From assembly GCA_017536445.1 (NCBI GenBank), contig JAFXHJ010000011.1:1-54342 (forward strand): DNA of 54,342 bases, given 5' to 3'. Of this stretch, positions 1-52,941 are shown one piece after another (positions within the stretch are counted from its first letter, which is position 1; every line of letters begins with the position of its first letter). The translations under genes and the position numbers were made by a program. The notes below the pieces were generated by a model. It had not been told where the DNA came from, made no database searches, and saw only the letters and a list, made by a program, of their open reading frames with translations. This DNA comes from Clostridia bacterium (lineage in GTDB: Bacteria; Bacillota; Clostridia; TANB77; CAG-465).

Positions 1-19
1 ACACACACACACACACACA
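1..19. repeat. AC dinucleotide tract at window edge
   Basis: The window opens with about nine and a half uninterrupted AC units. In the frame that stays open to 103 they read as alternating His-Thr. The tract may extend beyond the window, so its true length is unknown. It may be a low-complexity coding tract or a phase-variable simple repeat. Confidence 0.7.
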
Positions 20-103
20 AGTACATTTACTAATGAAAAAACATTAGTAACGTTTTTGCATCCTGAAACAAATATAGAAGCTAGCAAAGTAACACATACT
101 TAA
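2..103 (+). CDS. C-terminal end of an unidentified protein (partial)
   Basis: This frame is open from the left edge to a TAA at 101-103 and gives about 33 residues: a His/Thr run from the AC tract, then TSTFTNEKTLVTFLHPETN and a short polar tail. The stop lies in the loop of the terminator hairpin at 83-127, which is common for the last codons of a gene in this window (compare the stop at 35424-35426). A 33-codon open frame is weak evidence in AT-rich DNA, so the call rests mainly on its fit to the terminator. The product is not recognised. Confidence 0.45.
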   Translation, partial: HTHTHTSTFTNEKTLVTFLHPETNIEASKVTHT

Positions 104-127
104 TAGGTATGTGCCGCTTTGCTTTTT
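83..127 (+). terminator. Intrinsic terminator of the upstream gene
   Basis: AGCAAAG (83-89) pairs with CTTTGCT (117-123) and CACATAC (93-99) with GTATGTG (107-113), with a small internal loop between the two stems. A T run follows at 123-127. An ATG at 109 falls inside this hairpin and is not a plausible start for the next gene. Confidence 0.75.
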
Positions 128-153: not shown

Positions 154-1278
154 ATGCAAAATAAAAAGGGTATTTCTTTAATAGTTTTAGTCATTACAAT
201 AATAGTAATGATAATCTTAGCAGCAAGTGTAGTAATAACACTAAATAATACTGGTGTAATAAACAGAGCAAATGAAGCAGTAGATTTAACAAATGAAGCT
301 GCAGTACAAGACTTAGCTGCATTAACATGGGCAGATGCCTATATGGATAACAAAAGGGGTGAATTGCTAGTTGCGGAAGTAACAACAAAGTTATCAGAAC
401 AAGGGATAACAAATGAAAATTGGGATATAACAATAACAGACAAGGGAATAACAGTTACAAGTAAAAAGGATAATAATTCTGGTGGCGCTGATGATGAAAA
501 TGTAGATTGGAAGCCAGTAGTATGGAATGGTTTAGCAGGCTTTTCAGGGAATAATATCTGGACAGATGGTACACACATATATTACTCAGATGATGCCAGT
601 GTACCAGATGTATCGGTGGAATCTAAACATTATATACTTAATGGTAATGCTTGGGAGGAAAAAGTTTGGGTAGGTTTGGAAACACAAACTTCTATGTCAG
701 ACCACGGATTCTATGGTTATAATTTTTGGACAGATGGTACAAATGTATATTATTCAGATTTGGATAATGATCATTACGTATTAAATGGTGATGAATGGGA
801 GGAAATAGGATTTAATAATGATATAATTGGGCATATGTATTTTGCTGGGACAGATGTATGGACAGATGACACATATACTTATCTATCGTCTTATAGCGAA
901 GGACAATATGTGATAAATAAAGATAGAACTCTTGAAGAAAAAAATTGGAATGGTCTGGAATCATTTACAGCAAGTTTTATATGGACGGATGGTACAAACA
1001 TATATTATTCGGATTTTTCTGACCATTATGTATTAAAAGGTGATACTTGGGAAAGAAAAAATTGGACAGGATTAACAATTTTTAATGGAACAGACATATG
1101 GACCGATGGAACAAATACATATTATTCGTATGGTTCTGACCATTATATATTAAAAGGCGATATTTGGGAAAGAAAAAATTGGACGGGATTAGCAGATTTT
1201 AGTGGAGCCCATATATGGACGGATGGAGAAAATGTATATTATTCAAGTGACGAACAGCAATATATTCTTTCTAAATAA
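154..1278 (+). CDS. Prepilin-like protein with a six-repeat propeller-like head
   Basis: A 374-residue exported surface protein. The ATG at 154 is chosen because AAAGGAGG (136-143) lies 10 bases upstream; the in-frame ATG at 109 is inside the preceding terminator. Residues 1-6 (MQNKKG) are a prepilin leader ending in Gly, followed by a hydrophobic helix (7-30) starting ISLIVLVITIIVM. Mature position 5 is Val, not the Glu usual in type IV pilins. Residues 1-100 match the protein at 25920-26966 without gaps (75 of 100 identical). From residue 117 there are six repeats of about 39-48 residues with the pattern W.GL..F...IWTDGTN.YYS..HY.L.GD.WE.K. The last repeat lacks the final WE.K strand and the first is preceded by DWKPVVW, which would allow a circular closure as in beta-propellers (inference). 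No pilus assembly genes are in the window. The likely role is a surface or pilus-tip adhesin. Confidence 0.8.
   Translation: MQNKKGISLIVLVITIIVMIILAASVVITLNNTGVINRANEAVDLTNEAAVQDLAALTWADAYMDNKRGELLVAEVTTKLSEQGITNENWDITITDKGITVTSKKDNNSGGADDENVDWKPVVWNGLAGFSGNNIWTDGTHIYYSDDASVPDVSVESKHYILNGNAWEEKVWVGLETQTSMSDHGFYGYNFWTDGTNVYYSDLDNDHYVLNGDEWEEIGFNNDIIGHMYFAGTDVWTDDTYTYLSSYSEGQYVINKDRTLEEKNWNGLESFTASFIWTDGTNIYYSDFSDHYVLKGDTWERKNWTGLTIFNGTDIWTDGTNTYYSYGSDHYILKGDIWERKNWTGLADFSGAHIWTDGENVYYSSDEQQYILSK
502..1275 (+). repeat. Six tandem propeller-like repeats in the prepilin-like head
   Basis: Each unit carries IWTDGTN.YYS or a close variant, then HY.L.GD.WE.K and W.GL. The third unit is the most diverged (VWTDDTYTYLSS), and the fourth to sixth are the most alike. 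The periodicity is visible in both protein and DNA. Confidence 0.75.
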
Positions 1279-25808: not shown

Positions 25809-25865
25809 AAAATCTAATCCTTTCAGAAATATTATGTGGACAATGTGGAAAAATATAATAAAAGA

Positions 25866-25894
25866 TTTACAAAAAATGAAATTTGATATACAAT
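25866..25894 (+). promoter_or_regulatory. Promoter of the second prepilin-like gene
   Basis: TTTACA (25866-25871), a 17-base spacer and TACAAT (25889-25894), followed by an AAAGGGGG ribosome binding site. Confidence 0.6.
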
Positions 25895-25919
25895 AAAAAC
25901 ACATAAAGGGGGTAAACAA

Positions 25920-26966
25920 ATGAAAAAGAAACAAGGTATATCTTTAATAGTTTTAGTCATTACAATAATAGTGATGATAATATTAGCAGCAAGTGTAGTA
26001 ATAACATTAAGTAACAATGGTGTAATAGATAGAGCAAGTCATGCAGTAGATTTGACAAATGAATCTCAAGTGCAAGATTTAGCAGCACTAATATGGGCCG
26101 ATGCCTATATGAATGACAAGAGAGGAACCGAGCTTGAAACAGAAGTAACAACCAAACTATCTGAACAAGGAGTAACATCAGATAAATGGGAGATAATAAT
26201 AACAGATACTGGGGTTACAGTAGAAAATAAAAATAATGACGGTGGAGACAACACGCAATCAGGAACTGGACTAGGTTCGTTAATTTCTAAAGATAACTAT
26301 GGAGATAAAGTAGATTATACTGTAACTGTAGATGGAGTTGTGTATGATGATTGGCAAATATACTATCATAATGCGGATTATGTATATTTAATAGCAGAGA
26401 ATAGTATAGGAGATACTACACTAGATAAAGGAACAACAGTGGCAAGCTTAACAAGTGATGAAGTAGCATTATATGAAAAGTTTAGAGTAGGAGATGTTAC
26501 AAAATACACATTAGTAGATACAGTAAGCGAAAGCACATTATATAATTCACAAGCGGTAGCACAATTAATAAAAGATTATGCTAAATTCGCAAATACTAAG
26601 ACATATGGTACAAATATAGTAGGAGCAATAGGTGGACCAACAATAGAATTATTAGCAGCGGGCTGGAATGCGAAAGGTTATGTTCCAACAATTACAATCA
26701 CAACAGATACATATGGATATAAAATAAACAGCAATAGTGAAGCAGAATTAACAAGTGACGGTCTATATATACCATTGAATAGTTCATATTGGTTGGCGTC
26801 TCCGTCGGCTGAATTCGATAGTACAGTTATGATTACAAGTTGTGATGGAGTGTATTATGATGATTATTCTCGTGCTATTCTTGAGGTGCGCCCTGTAGTA
26901 TGCTTAAAATCTAGTATCCCAGCAATAGCAGGAACAGGAGAGTATGATTTTAGTTTAGTTAAATAA
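25920..26966 (+). CDS. Prepilin-like protein with the same stalk as 154-1278 and a different head
   Basis: A 348-residue exported protein. The leader MKKKQG ends in Gly, and the mature helix begins ISLIVLVITIIVMIILAASV, with Val at mature position 5. Residues 1-100 align without gaps to the protein at 154-1278 (75 of 100 identical), and the DNA is also strongly conserved there. Similarity ends near residue 103, after ITDTGVTVENK. The head (about 115-348) is unrelated to the propeller: it includes DNYGDKVDYTVTVDGVVYDD and a C-terminal block SYWLASPSAEFDS...EVRPVVCLKSS. WLASPS with RPVVCL resembles a cell-surface domain common in Clostridia (DUF6273-type; family assignment from memory). The likely role is a surface adhesin or pilus-associated subunit. 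Confidence 0.8.
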   Translation: MKKKQGISLIVLVITIIVMIILAASVVITLSNNGVIDRASHAVDLTNESQVQDLAALIWADAYMNDKRGTELETEVTTKLSEQGVTSDKWEIIITDTGVTVENKNNDGGDNTQSGTGLGSLISKDNYGDKVDYTVTVDGVVYDDWQIYYHNADYVYLIAENSIGDTTLDKGTTVASLTSDEVALYEKFRVGDVTKYTLVDTVSESTLYNSQAVAQLIKDYAKFANTKTYGTNIVGAIGGPTIELLAAGWNAKGYVPTITITTDTYGYKINSNSEAELTSDGLYIPLNSSYWLASPSAEFDSTVMITSCDGVYYDDYSRAILEVRPVVCLKSSIPAIAGTGEYDFSLVK

Positions 26967-26980
26967 TATAATAAATATGC

Positions 26981-27010
26981 AAAAAGCACCAAATTAATGG
27001 TGCTTTTTAT
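26981..27010. terminator. Bidirectional terminator after the second prepilin-like gene
   Basis: AAAAAGCACCA (26981-26991) and TGGTGCTTTTT (26998-27008) flank the loop AATTAA. It lies between convergent genes. Confidence 0.85.
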
Positions 27011-38627: not shown

Positions 38628-39116
38628 ATGAAAAGAAAACAAGGTGTAACGGTACTAGCGCTTAGTATAGCGGTGGCAATAATGGCAATACTAACGGCAG
38701 CCGCTATTATTAATATAGATAACATTATTCCAACCGCTAGAAAATCTAAAATAGCAGAAGAATTCGAACTTATACAGGATAAGGTTAAGGAATACTATTT
38801 AACATATGGAAATTATCCCGTGCTAAATGACACAACTTATACTAAAGCGGAAGTAGTAGCGTTAAATACTAATGAAAAAGCGGGTGATTTATCTGATGAA
38901 ATAGATAAGAATGGCGATGAAAACAGTATATTCTTTTTAATAGATTTAGAAAAGCTAAGGATAAACACTTTATTGTTTGGAAATAACAATACATCAGATG
39001 ATATATATATAGCTGCATCAAGCTCTGGTACAGTATATTACCCTAAAGGTGTAATTGCTGATGGAATAACAGTATTTTCCACAGGTGGATTTAAGGAAGT
39101 AACTAATATAGAATAG
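38628..39116 (+). CDS. Prepilin-like protein, 162 residues
   Basis: A small pilin- or pseudopilin-like protein. A basic leader (MKRKQG) ends in Gly, and the mature helix begins VTVLALSIAVAIMAILTAAA with Ala at mature position 5 in place of Glu. After the helix come IIPTARKSKIAEEFELIQDK and the short pilin-like turn YYLTYGNYPVLNDTTYTK. The C-terminal beta region ends with GTVYYPKGVIADGITVFSTG. It does not share the stalk of the two larger prepilin-like proteins and may be a minor pilin. A GGGAG site precedes the ATG. It is a single-gene unit between dacA and frr. Confidence 0.75.
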   Translation: MKRKQGVTVLALSIAVAIMAILTAAAIINIDNIIPTARKSKIAEEFELIQDKVKEYYLTYGNYPVLNDTTYTKAEVVALNTNEKAGDLSDEIDKNGDENSIFFLIDLEKLRINTLLFGNNNTSDDIYIAASSSGTVYYPKGVIADGITVFSTGGFKEVTNIE

Positions 39117-48315: not shown

Positions 48316-51300
48316 ATGAATATAATATTGAAAAAAACAGTAGCAATAGTATTATTAGTGGCCATGTTAATAACACATACGCCTATTTATGTTATTGCTG
48401 CGACTGATACAACACCACCTTCTGTGGTGATTTCTGGCTTGTCTTCAAGCACAGTAGCGTATCAAGGGGAATCTATGAGCTTTAAAGTGTATTTTTCAGA
48501 CGAAACAGCAATGGGAGATATAAACTTTAATGCTAATTATGTTATGTTAGTAGGATTTACAGGAAACGTTTCTGTAAGTGGAAGTGGAAATCCAAAAACA
48601 GTTACAATTTCTAATATAAATGACAATTCTACAACAGCAAATAAAGTAATGATAAGAGCGGCAGCAGCGAAGGATGCTGCAGGAAATACTTCAAAGAGTT
48701 TCTCATCTTCAGCATTTACAATTACTGCAAGACCAGATACAACTAAACCATCGGTTGTAGTATCTAAACCATCAGTGTCTTCAGTTGTAGAAGGTGGAAG
48801 CGTATCATACACTGTAACATTTTCAGATAATAAAGGCATATCAACAAATAATTTTAATTCAAACTATGTGTCTTTAACTGGATTCAACGCAAACATATCA
48901 GTAAGTGGAAGTGGAAATACAAGAACAGTAACACTTACAAATGTTCAAGGCGCAGCAGATTCAGATAATAAAATATCTATAAGAGCAAATGCGGTTAAGG
49001 ATGCTGCAGGTAATGGAAATTCAGCAGTAACTTCTACTGCATTCACGATAACAGCTGCAGATACAACTAGACCATCTGTAGTAATATCTAAACCATCAGT
49101 GTCTTCAGTTGTAGAAGGCGGAAGTGTGTCATACACTGTAACATTCTCAGATAACAAGGGTATATCTACGAATAGCTTTAGCGCAAGTTATGTTGCGTTA
49201 ACAGGCTTTAGTGCAAACGTATCAGTAAGTGGAAGTGGAAATACAAGAACAGTAACACTTACAAATGTTCAAGGCGCAGCAGATTCAGACAATAAAATAT
49301 CTATAAGAGCAAATGCGGTTAAGGATGCTGCAGGTAATGGGAACTCAGCAGTAACTTCTACTACATTCGCGATAACAGCTGCAGATACAACTAAACCATC
49401 AGTAGTAATATCTAAGCCTTCTCCTACAACAGTAGAACAAGGAGGAACTGTAAAATATACTGTGTCATTTGCGGATGAAACAAAAATGGGAACAGTAAAC
49501 TTTAATGAAAATTATGTTGCGTTAATAGGATTTACAGGAAATGTTTCTGTAACAGGAACAGGAAATACTAGATATGTAACCATATCTAATATTACAGGAG
49601 TAGCAGATTCAGATAACAAAATAACAATAAGAGCAAATGCAGCAAAAGATGCATCTGGAAATGGAACAATAGCAACAAATTCAACAACATTCACGATTGT
49701 TGAACCTGTAAGAGATACAACTAAACCATCAGTAGTAATATCTAAACCAACTCCAATGTCTATAACAGAAGGTGGAACGGTTAAGTATACAGTAGCATTC
49801 TCAGATGAAACAGCAATGGGAACAATAAACTTTAACGAGAACTATGTGGCTCTAATTGGATTTACTGCAAATGTATCAGTAAGTGGAAGTGGAAATACAA
49901 GAACAGTAACACTTACAAATGTTCAAGGTGCAGCGGATTCAGATAACAAAATAACAATAAGAGCAAATGCAGCAAAAGATGCTGCTGGAAATGGCAACGT
50001 AGCAGTATCATCAACAACATTTACAATTACTGCAGTGCCAAAAGATACAACAAGACCATCAATAATAATATCTAAACCATCTCCAATATCTGTAAATGAG
50101 GGCGGAACAGTAAAATATACAGTGGTATTTTCAGATGAAACAGCAATGGGGACAATAAACTTTAACGAAAACTATGTTTCGTTAGTGGGATTTGATGCAA
50201 ACGTATCAGTAAGTGGAAGCGGAAATACAAGAACAGTAACACTTACTAATGTTCAAGGTGCAGCGGATTCAGACAATAAAATTGTGATAAGAGCAGGAGC
50301 GGCAAAAGATGCTGCTGGAAATTCTACTGTAGCAACAACATCAACAACGTTTACAATTGTTGAGACTATAAAAGATGCAACAAGACCATCAGTGGTAATA
50401 TCTAAACCATCACCTATGACAGTAGAAGTTGGTGGAACTGTAAGTTATACAGTAATGTTCTCAGATGAAACAAAAATGGGAACAATAAACTTTAACGAGA
50501 ACTATGTAGCATTAATAGGATTTAGCGCAAATGTTTCTGTAACAGGAACAGGAAATTCTAGAGTAGTAACATTATCTAACATCCAAGGTGATGCTGATTC
50601 AAATAATAGAATAGCGGTAAGAGCGGGAGCGGCAGCCGATGCTGCTGGAAATAAAACAGTAGCAGTAGAATCAACAAACTTTACTGTTACAATACCAGCT
50701 GTGAAGGATGTAACACCACCTTCAGTAATAATATCTAATCCAAATCCAACAATAACAGAAGTTGGTGGAACTGTAAAATATACAGTAGCATTTTCAGATG
50801 AAACAAAAATGGGAACAATAAACTTTAACGAAAACTATGTAGCATTAATAGGATTTAGTGCCAACATATCAGTAAGTGGAAGTGGAAATACAAGAACAGT
50901 AACATTATCTAACATTCAAGGTGGATTAGATTCAGATAACAGAATAGCGGTAAGAGCAGGAGCAGCACAAGACGCAGCAGGGAATAAGACAAAAGTTGTA
51001 GAATCAACAAACTTCAAAGTAATTGCAGCACCAGTAAAAGATACAACAGTTCCATCAGTGACAATTTCGGCTCCTAAGCCAGGTACAATAGAGTTAGGTG
51101 AAACTGTAAAATATACAGTGAAATTCTCAGATGAAACAAAAATGGGAGCAGTTCATTTTAATAAGAGTTACGTACAATTAATAGGATTTACAGCTAATGT
51201 TATAGTAACAGGAGATGGAAACACAAGAACAGTAACACTTACAAATGTACAAGGCGCTATTGATTCTGATAATAGAATATTAGTATTAGCAGGAGCAGCG

Positions 51301-52941
51301 GAAGATGCTGCTGGAAATAAAACTAAAGCAGTAGAATCAACAAACTTTACAATAGTAAAGACTGAAGAAAGAGATTCGATTCCACCAGTAGTTAAAATAA
51401 CTTCTGTAAAACCTGAAACAATATATGCTAATGGAACAGTAAAATATACTGTAACCTTTGCAGATAATATAAAAGTAACAGAAGTAAATCTATATGCAAG
51501 TAAAATAAAAACAATGGGATTCGATGCAGATGTGTCTGTAAAGATGAACGGAGTAAAATCAGCTGAAATAACACTTAAGAATATAAAAGGAACAGTAGGA
51601 AACAATAAATATATCGTTATTGCATCAGGTGTAGCGCTAGATGCTGAGGGAAACAGATCTAAAGAAGCAACGGGACCAAAATTCAGTATAATTGAAAAGG
51701 CAAATCCTAAACCAGACGTTCCAACTAAGCCTGGAAGCGATAGCGAAGAAGATGCATTAAGACCAATAATAATTGAAAAAGTTAATTGTATTGACGATTT
51801 AAAATTAATCGGAGATATAAATAAAGAAATAGATTATTTTGCATCATGGTTAAAAACAGAAAAAGATGAGAATTTATTATTCCCACAAGAACAAAACTAT
51901 GTAGCTAAAAATGATGAAATGACATATATTGTAGAATACTTTAATGGAAGCACAGCTACAGCAGAAAACGTTAAATTTGAGTTAACAATACCATATGGTG
52001 TAAAAGTACTTGAAATAAACGGTGGCGGAAAAGTAACTAGCGTAACAGATGACGCTACTATAGTAACTTGGAATATGGGAAATATTAAAGCATATGCTGC
52101 TTCAGCGGGAACAGGATATTGTAGACTATATGTTAAGGTTAAATTCTTACAAAATGTAGAATTAGAATCAAGCAAGAATATTTCAGAAGTGTTCTTTGCG
52201 ACATTAAAAACGGTAGCTAACGATAGCAATTCTTACTCATACATGAGACAATTATTTATAGATCTAACAGAAGGAAAAGTAGGAACATATAATAAATCTT
52301 TAGTTTCAATAGATGCTTTAAATGAAGTTAGACCAAACGAAGAAATAACAAGAGCAGAATTTGCTAAATTATTAGCAGATGCTGGAATTATTGAAGTCGA
52401 CTATAAGAGTAAAGCGTATAAAAACTTTAAAGATTATGAAATGATACCATCATACGCAAGAGCGGCGGTAGCAGCTTTAGCGAAAGCAGAAATAATAAAA
52501 CCTTATGCAGACGGGACATTTAAACCATATAATCCGATTTTAATGGAAGATGCTATGCAGATATTAGCAGAAGCTGCGGCTCATATGACAAACCAAAAAT
52601 TAGCAGTTTCTAAACCAGTATTCTTGTATACTGAAGCATTAACAGGAAAAGACGGAGAAGTATCTCCTAAGAAAGATTATATAATGGAACTAATGAGACA
52701 AAATGTGATTTCTAGTGATGAATCAAATCCTGATTCATATGTACTAAGAAGAGAGGCTGTAGAAATGGTTAATAGCTTGGCATTTAGAGGTCCAGCAGTA
52801 CAAACTCTAGAGGAAAACGAATTAAAATTCGCAAAAGTTAGAGAGAATAATGTTGTATTCTATAATGTTGTAGAAGCTATGGAAAAAACAAACTATGTAT
52901 ATGACTATAAATTATGGCAAGATATAGTTGATATAAAATAG
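48316..52941 (+). CDS. Large surface protein with ten Ig-like repeats and C-terminal SLH modules
   Basis: A 1541-residue exported protein. The signal peptide is about 1-29 (hydrophobic VAIVLLVAMLI, cleavage near VIAAT). Ten Ig-like repeats of 108-111 residues (about 31-1127) each start near DTTKPSVVISKPSP, contain GGTVKYTVAFSDETKMGTIN, NYVALIGF and TRTVTLTNVQG, and end NAAKDAAGNG..STTFTI. A DUF11-like segment (about 1185-1295) includes YIVEYFNGSTATAENVKFEL. SLH-type modules (about 1334-1475) include VRPNEEITRAEFAKLLADAG and KPYADGTFKPYNP, which would bind pyruvylated cell-wall polysaccharide. The expected role is an S-layer-associated adhesin or stalk. GGAGG lies 9 bases before the ATG. Confidence 0.9.
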   Translation: MNIILKKTVAIVLLVAMLITHTPIYVIAATDTTPPSVVISGLSSSTVAYQGESMSFKVYFSDETAMGDINFNANYVMLVGFTGNVSVSGSGNPKTVTISNINDNSTTANKVMIRAAAAKDAAGNTSKSFSSSAFTITARPDTTKPSVVVSKPSVSSVVEGGSVSYTVTFSDNKGISTNNFNSNYVSLTGFNANISVSGSGNTRTVTLTNVQGAADSDNKISIRANAVKDAAGNGNSAVTSTAFTITAADTTRPSVVISKPSVSSVVEGGSVSYTVTFSDNKGISTNSFSASYVALTGFSANVSVSGSGNTRTVTLTNVQGAADSDNKISIRANAVKDAAGNGNSAVTSTTFAITAADTTKPSVVISKPSPTTVEQGGTVKYTVSFADETKMGTVNFNENYVALIGFTGNVSVTGTGNTRYVTISNITGVADSDNKITIRANAAKDASGNGTIATNSTTFTIVEPVRDTTKPSVVISKPTPMSITEGGTVKYTVAFSDETAMGTINFNENYVALIGFTANVSVSGSGNTRTVTLTNVQGAADSDNKITIRANAAKDAAGNGNVAVSSTTFTITAVPKDTTRPSIIISKPSPISVNEGGTVKYTVVFSDETAMGTINFNENYVSLVGFDANVSVSGSGNTRTVTLTNVQGAADSDNKIVIRAGAAKDAAGNSTVATTSTTFTIVETIKDATRPSVVISKPSPMTVEVGGTVSYTVMFSDETKMGTINFNENYVALIGFSANVSVTGTGNSRVVTLSNIQGDADSNNRIAVRAGAAADAAGNKTVAVESTNFTVTIPAVKDVTPPSVIISNPNPTITEVGGTVKYTVAFSDETKMGTINFNENYVALIGFSANISVSGSGNTRTVTLSNIQGGLDSDNRIAVRAGAAQDAAGNKTKVVESTNFKVIAAPVKDTTVPSVTISAPKPGTIELGETVKYTVKFSDETKMGAVHFNKSYVQLIGFTANVIVTGDGNTRTVTLTNVQGAIDSDNRILVLAGAAEDAAGNKTKAVESTNFTIVKTEERDSIPPVVKITSVKPETIYANGTVKYTVTFADNIKVTEVNLYASKIKTMGFDADVSVKMNGVKSAEITLKNIKGTVGNNKYIVIASGVALDAEGNRSKEATGPKFSIIEKANPKPDVPTKPGSDSEEDALRPIIIEKVNCIDDLKLIGDINKEIDYFASWLKTEKDENLLFPQEQNYVAKNDEMTYIVEYFNGSTATAENVKFELTIPYGVKVLEINGGGKVTSVTDDATIVTWNMGNIKAYAASAGTGYCRLYVKVKFLQNVELESSKNISEVFFATLKTVANDSNSYSYMRQLFIDLTEGKVGTYNKSLVSIDALNEVRPNEEITRAEFAKLLADAGIIEVDYKSKAYKNFKDYEMIPSYARAAVAALAKAEIIKPYADGTFKPYNPILMEDAMQILAEAAAHMTNQKLAVSKPVFLYTEALTGKDGEVSPKKDYIMELMRQNVISSDESNPDSYVLRREAVEMVNSLAFRGPAVQTLEENELKFAKVRENNVVFYNVVEAMEKTNYVYDYKLWQDIVDIK
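48406..51696 (+). repeat. Ten tandem Ig-like repeat units
   Basis: Units begin at the Asp codon at 48406, 48736, 49060, 49384, 49714, 50044, 50374, 50707, 51040 and 51373, giving lengths of 330, 324, 324, 330, 330, 330, 333, 333 and 333 bases. Units two and three are nearly identical at the DNA level; the first and last are most diverged. Confidence 0.85.

Follow-up and report, generated by a model that had tools for sequence, protein, structure and literature searches.

Modular prepilin-like genes with differing heads and a candidate CA-repeat switch in a Clostridia genome

Introduction

Two genes of the window, by which we mean the whole 54,342-nt stretch of Clostridia DNA analyzed here, encode proteins that begin with the same prepilin-like stalk and continue into heads bearing no relation to each other. 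This locus raises the question of whether the pair belongs to a modular system, in which one export and anchor module displays exchangeable heads, as the initial annotation had proposed, and, if so, how the heads are exchanged and how their genes are controlled.

Materials and Methods

The window corresponds to contig 10 (C10) of a Clostridia genome (G000) of 1.307 Mb in 21 contigs, rated 100% complete. The nearest relative compared was G035, a sister species. Stalk-gene copies were read as DNA stretches around stalk matches (labels L001 etc.). The assemblies are MAGs, whose contigs are broken at these repeats, and some joins are therefore uncertain. The first base of the window is the start of the contig and falls inside a CA repeat; as at least 13 contig ends fall in stalk genes or their leaders, the window begins in the leader of the 154-1278 gene. 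Features of the window are collected in Table 1.

Table 1. Positions of the described features in the window
Feature	Coordinates	Strand	Remarks
(CA)n tract in the uORF of the 154-1278 leader	1..19	+	Contig C19 ends with the 5' part of this leader
3' part of the leader uORF, long frame (..HTSTFTNEKTLVTFLHPETNIEASKVTHT*)	1..103	+	Stop codon 101-103 inside the terminator 5' arm
Leader terminator hairpin AGCAAAGTAACACATAC..GTATGTGCCGCTTTGCT, followed by a T-run	83..123	+	
Modular prepilin-like gene with leader	154..1278	+	Stalk 154-465; head ~520-1278 of WTDGxxxYYSD-type repeats
Promoter-like TTTACA-N17-TACAAT of the leaderless gene	25866..25894	+	By sequence; homologous to, and aligned with, promoters of leader-bearing copies
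Shine-Dalgarno GGGGG	25908..25912	+	With the ATG, aligns with the uORF SD and ATG of leader-bearing copies
Stretch missing in the sister species (G035)	25908..26969	.	Flanks 96-98% identical; junction with 6 nt of microhomology
Modular prepilin-like gene, leaderless, 348 aa	25920..26966	+	Absent from the sister species
Stalk, residues 1-104	25920..26231	+	Class III-like leader KKKQG/ISLIV, hydrophobic helix, short beta hairpin
Head A, C-type-lectin-like fold, residues 115-348	26262..26966	+	AlphaFold model and structural matches
Hypervariable segment of head A, residues 296-322	26805..26885	+	WLASPS to VRPVVC; 14 proteins
Terminator-like hairpin AAAAAGCACC..GGTGCTTTTT, 3' of the 25920 gene	26981..27009	+	Kept in the sister species

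Results

A Common Stalk Defines a Large Gene Family

For the proteins encoded at 25920-26966 and 154-1278, the initial annotation had reported 75 ungapped identities over residues 1-100, an abrupt end of similarity and unrelated heads, and our alignment reproduced this exactly and at correct coordinates; over residues 1-104 the count is 77. BLASTP of both proteins gave 81/111 identities (E 6e-48) and, beyond that, only chance-level pieces. The strong conservation of the underlying DNA was likewise confirmed, with 240 of the first 300 nucleotides identical; it declines along the stalk, from 54/60 in the first 60-nt block to 44/60 in the last. For the 154-1278 gene, this start was preferred over the longer ORF at 109 because an AAGGAGG motif is found at 138-144.

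We found that the two window genes are by no means the only copies. A search of the genome and its relatives with the 104-residue stalk, with the heads listed, gave 49 matches in the source genome, 47 of them at E<1e-6, and many head classes. On reading, these matches resolve into about 45 genes, which start with K-G/ISLIVLVITIIVMIILA or with the type-2 variant G/ISLIVLSITILVMAILA and total ~46.7 kb, i.e., 3.6% of the genome. One suspected stop within a gene (L028, C21:3058) proved only apparent, as the match extended upstream of the ATG. The stalk occurs in 21 of the 36 genomes of the family, in up to 47 copies, and comparable expansions are seen in the sister species and across the family (34, 29, 46, and 38 copies).

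Both window genes and nearly all copies carry a class III signal (KKKQG/ISLIVLVITIIVMIILAASV), in which a short charged leader ending in glycine is followed by a hydrophobic stretch of about 20 residues. The stalk gave no match to the Pfam N-methylation family (N_methyl), and glutamate at mature position +5 (E5) is absent in all stalks read and in the pilin of the T4P locus (V at +5). This residue is usual in major pilins and absent in some minor ones, and is not strictly defining; its absence is unusual for T4P subunits. The window also encodes a further short prepilin-like protein (MKRKQGVTVLALSIAVAIMAILTAAAIINID; 38628-39116), distant from the stalk family, and a surface protein of 1541 aa with Big_12/Big_5 domains and SLH repeats (48316-52941).

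The Stalk and the T4P Machinery

Both T4P machinery and a prepilin peptidase are encoded in the genome. The T4P locus (C4:134-142k) comprises genes for PilB, PilT, PilC, a protein with the A24_N domain and a pilin of 129 aa with a stalk-like N-terminus, while a full-length A24 peptidase is encoded outside the locus (C12:14110). The "PilD" of the T4P locus (L051:10814-11641) has the A24 N-terminal domain only, seemingly fused to a pilin-like segment, and the locus pilin (L051:10266-10655) is without glutamate at +5, like all pilin-type proteins read.

It might be argued that the stalk is a mere membrane anchor or secretion signal of single surface proteins, with no T4P assembly involved. The missing E5 fits such a role, and so does the number of different subunits, about 45, as we know of no pilus that carries anywhere near as many. 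Against it, a PilC-type T2SSF protein is encoded by 20 of the 21 stalk-positive and none of the 15 stalk-negative genomes (Fisher 2.9e-9, a value which overstates independence because the genomes are related), and the T4P-locus pilin has the same N-terminus as the stalks. The AlphaFold model of the 25920 protein, computed with 23 relatives (pLDDT 84, mostly >90 in the head), also resembles a pilin module in its stalk (helix 9-64, beta hairpin 90-103), from which a disordered linker leads to a confidently modeled head. We give the anchor role a minor but real weight, and prefer a stalk that would be processed by the prepilin peptidase, carried by the T4P machinery and so present the head, in or on pili.

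A CA-Repeat Leader Precedes About a Dozen of the Genes

We found a leader of ~180 nt in about 12 copies in the source genome, including 154-1278 and excluding 25920, and in a similar number in the sister species. Its uORF, preceded by a Shine-Dalgarno sequence, begins MKNAESLAAV; the leader further comprises a (CA)n tract, an outer stem (AAAAACGCT:AGCGTTTTT) that encloses two small hairpins, and a strong terminator. The promoter, Shine-Dalgarno and ATG of the 25920 gene align with the promoter, Shine-Dalgarno and uORF ATG of leader-bearing genes, so that 25920 looks like a leaderless version; in the sister species, matches to window positions 25852-25932 sit at the leaders of other stalk genes.

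The three reading frames behind the CA tract are not equivalent. One stays open as far as the terminator 5' arm and has its stop codon within that arm; in the other two, the stop precedes the terminator by ~52 and ~38 nt. Exactly one frame reaches the hairpin in 27 of 32 leaders; of the exceptions, two leaders show two such frames and, under a strict test, three show none, their stop falling 6-7 nt short. For a single leader, reaching the hairpin may well be due to chance (P ~0.1-0.9), and the joint null for at least one reaching frame across nine sequence groups, ~1e-4, is indicative, with f2_L156 failing the strict test (stop 6 nt short).

The state of the frame differs with tract length. 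All seven leaders with a CA tract of ≤9 nt are in the reaching frame, vs. 4 of 24 with a tract of ≥14 nt (p 1.3e-4; p 0.003 without the pattern-selected genomes; both values are indicative, because related copies are not independent). The overall ON:OFF count of 11:20 matches the one third expected by chance and masks this strong split. Such a bias of short tracts is expected if the reaching frame means ON and copies unable to slip are kept solely when ON. Both frame states are present among near relatives. In L004, L008, and L018 the CA tract is ≤7 nt or missing, and these leaders probably do not switch.

The same layout, with a different sequence, recurs elsewhere in the order, in further genera and families, where prepilin genes repeatedly follow it (G177, G403, G280). 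The uORF peptide was considered as the sole conserved product and rejected, since genera differ in its sequence but keep the frame layout. The CA leader is also located before genes without a prepilin start (L114, L115, and L132 in G018 and G028; L155, L158, L165, L166), which encode a possible HAD-like protein, a membrane protein, a lipoprotein and others; thus, the putative switch is not confined to pilins. In three loci of G177 (L152, L157, L162), the hairpin following the CA uORF has no T-run; it apparently base-pairs with the prepilin gene's Shine-Dalgarno region, which suggests a translational version of the switch.

Could the leader instead be a ligand-sensing riboswitch or a protein-binding attenuator, to which the uORF and CA tract are incidental? 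One example folds into a three-way junction plus terminator (z -5.2), and some copies have lost the CA tract, both of which suit this explanation; base-pair covariation is modest. Yet almost all leaders whose 5' end is complete have a Shine-Dalgarno sequence and start codon, the one-in-three frame reaches the hairpin across different sequences and families, and short CA tracts are always in that frame. No Rfam family matched the leader at the gathering threshold, with just noise at E<=10. LoaP antitermination was rejected as well: source genome and sister species each gave one NusG match and no paralogue, and with a single NusG-like gene per genome there is no LoaP-type antiterminator. A riboswitch or protein-binding attenuator is, in our judgment, unlikely.

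We rather envisage that slippage of the (CA)n tract in the short uORF changes its reading frame. In the ON state, a ribosome in one of the three frames would enter the 5' arm of the terminator and hold it open, whereas in the OFF state, in either of the other frames, it would stop ~30-50 nt upstream and let the terminator form. Each leader-bearing head gene would be turned ON or OFF on its own, and no such switching is predicted for genes that, like 25920, lack the leader.

Heads Carried by the Stalks

The stalks carry heads of the C-type-lectin-like, Big_2, beta-helix (Beta_helix), FN3, BspA-type LRR (LRR_5), GLUG (Glug) and Hint/intein-like classes, in addition to FNE...RTVDFG..EFYDWF domains, MTWxxWVNSxYN domains and the WTDG repeats of 154-1278. 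A stalk gene of the source genome (L037:867-2516, minus strand) has a head ending in a Hint/intein-splicing-like domain (PF14890 1e-11; PT-HINT 6e-9); in the sister species, the head end of L181:2008-3432 (plus strand) was judged Hint-like by eye, with no Pfam Hint match.

Pfam and NCBIfam revealed no head family for either window protein. Head A, which is carried by the 25920 protein, is the commonest class, and its model indicates a C-type-lectin-like fold. The best structural match, with Z 10.6 across 177 residues, is to an IgA peptidase of Thomasclavelia ramosa in its N-terminal part (9qa6), and many C-type lectin domains follow at Z ~5; these latter values alone are weak, and the assignment was made because the fold is consistent and 9qa6 matches. 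Within head A, residues 296-322 show a mean pairwise identity of 0.29 among 14 proteins; the corresponding values are 0.72 for the remainder of the head and 0.87 for the tail. The head of the 25920 protein probably binds a ligand. In one copy, L021 (C17:4301), head A is seemingly broken by a frameshift or stop.

Promoter, Leader, Stalk and Head Form a Mosaic

Exchange of parts is seen in single loci. In the sister species, L196 combines a type-2 stalk (81% identical to that of L035) with a head A that is 78% identical to heads on type-1 stalks, while its stalk is only 39% identical to the stalks of these head relatives. Two other genes there, L175 and L176, share 96% identity across the upstream 230 nt; in the stalk the figure is 92%, and 93-100% as far as about codon 60, whereas their heads are at background. 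Identity falls again upstream of -220. As read from the sequence, one common promoter-leader-stalk module carries two heads in this pair, much as the initial annotation had proposed. That proposal rightly included the stalk, but overlooked the leader, as the shared 5' unit consists of promoter, leader and stalk. Leaders appear to be gained and lost separately from the coding part: L002 has a leader and L170 has none, with 93% identity between their stalks and 86% between their heads. These comparisons point to recombination between the parts, i.e., promoter with or without leader, stalk, and head.

Recombination in the conserved 5' region, also suggested initially, is clear in the L175/L176 pair, but genome-wide the signal is weak. 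The same-codon rate was 0.71 in codons 1-32 (expected 0.43), 0.69 in codons 33-104 (0.52) and 0.66 in head A (0.49); this merely modest 5' excess, a slight homogenization of codons 1-32, does not fit strong stalk-wide gene conversion, which we rejected. Since stalk and head of head-A pairs show similar synonymous-codon agreement, many copies have diverged as whole genes.

The latter result is what an ordinary gene family would yield, in which old paralogues retain a functionally conserved stalk and the heads have diverged past recognition with no real exchange. This is hard to reconcile with one stalk bearing folds that are unrelated to each other (lectin-like, LRR, beta helix, Big_2, Hint), with one head class on two stalk classes (L196) and with near-identical leader and stalk below unrelated heads (L175/L176), and we regard it as very unlikely.

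Stalk Genes Turn Over Quickly Between Sister Species

The 25920 gene is missing in the sister species, where the flanks are 96-98% identical and overlap by 6 nt at the junction; a promoter remnant at the empty site suggests loss there. In the sister species, nine further loci are likewise empty (L002, L006, L009, L010, L014, L019, L022, L036, L037), and the flanks of the ten are mostly 90-98% identical. Site-specific insertion was rejected, as the 10 empty-site junctions have neither a common motif nor a target duplication; short microhomology is found in a few. Other orthologous loci carry a different head. At the 154-1278 locus (end of C19 plus start of C10), the flanks are 94-95% identical and the sister species has L183, with a BspA-LRR-like head and no leader. 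The L007 locus has one gene vs. two in the two species, and the L033 locus three FN3-type genes vs. one gene with a different head. Head A is retained at the L005/L029 locus, and the T4P-locus pilin (L031/L193) is conserved. Whole stalk-gene units thus appear to be gained and lost quickly, and long-standing vertical inheritance of the full-length proteins does not describe these loci, whose inheritance is unstable between the two species.

Proteins diversified by diversity-generating retroelements (DGR) have a C-type-lectin-like fold with a hypervariable C-terminal segment. Head A shares both traits, but variation of the heads by a DGR or a shufflon-type recombinase is scarcely credible, given that the genome, rated 100% complete, has no match to reverse transcriptase (PF00078, RVT_1; positive controls matched), that the heads belong to complete dispersed genes, and that the empty-site junctions have no att-like site.

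Discussion

Modular type IV pilins have been described, e.g., PilB and PilC of Streptococcus sanguinis, and 264 head architectures were surveyed (PMC8179133). Similar to these, the proteins reported here join a small pilin module with a class III signal through a linker to a functional module, and their heads are extra modules that are not T4P-specific. In contrast, about 45 of them are encoded in one 1.3 Mb genome as dispersed single genes, without E5, with leaders and with fast turnover between sister species. A different arrangement is known from the shufflon PilV adhesins of IncI/IncI2 plasmids, e.g., TP114 (PMC9045228), where a single pilin N-terminus likewise receives alternative C-terminal adhesin heads, but one gene is rearranged by a recombinase.

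The closest counterpart of the leader is the pil1 locus of Streptococcus gallolyticus, where GCAGA repeats in a leader peptide gene control an attenuator proven by experiment: expression is low if the stop precedes the terminator by 39 bp, and high if the stop falls within or beyond the terminator; pil3 works in the same way (Danne et al., 2014; PMC3894217). The CA leaders share this layout, having a uORF with Shine-Dalgarno, start codon and short tandem repeat, a terminator hairpin between uORF and gene, and a frame which puts the stop either upstream of or within that hairpin. They differ in the CA dinucleotide, in the three-way-junction RNA, and in being present in ~12 copies per genome over different genes, which are of T4P type and not sortase pili. 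The CA leader spans families of one Clostridia order, and its likeness to pil1 is one of layout, with sequence homology not expected. From the proven pil1 design (PMC3894217), we infer that (CA)n slippage and ON/OFF control would operate here as well.

We consider it likely that the genome carries about 45 modular T4P pilin genes, formed as a three-part mosaic with quick turnover, about a dozen of which are preceded by a phase-variable attenuator. Judging from the leaders, about a quarter of the genes seem to be switched randomly by CA slippage. It appears rather probable, if less so, that the order-wide CA leader and its uORF act as about a dozen independent random switches that choose among heads, and that the module spreads to new heads by recombination. 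In the open-licence literature, we found no paper joining modular pilins with such an attenuator, nor one on the CA leader in Clostridia; the type of pilin and the type of switch are already known, and their genome-wide combination is new.

These genes offer a concrete mechanism, open to testing, by which gut Clostridia that are uncultured and genome-reduced could vary their surface, and would link modular pilins to a phase-variable attenuator for which proof so far, as far as we found, comes only from streptococcal sortase pili. As the leader is recognizable by sequence, an inventory of phase-variable surface genes can be drawn up for a whole order, and gut metagenome reads that already exist give the length of the CA tract directly. 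The bacterium probably keeps changing its surface.
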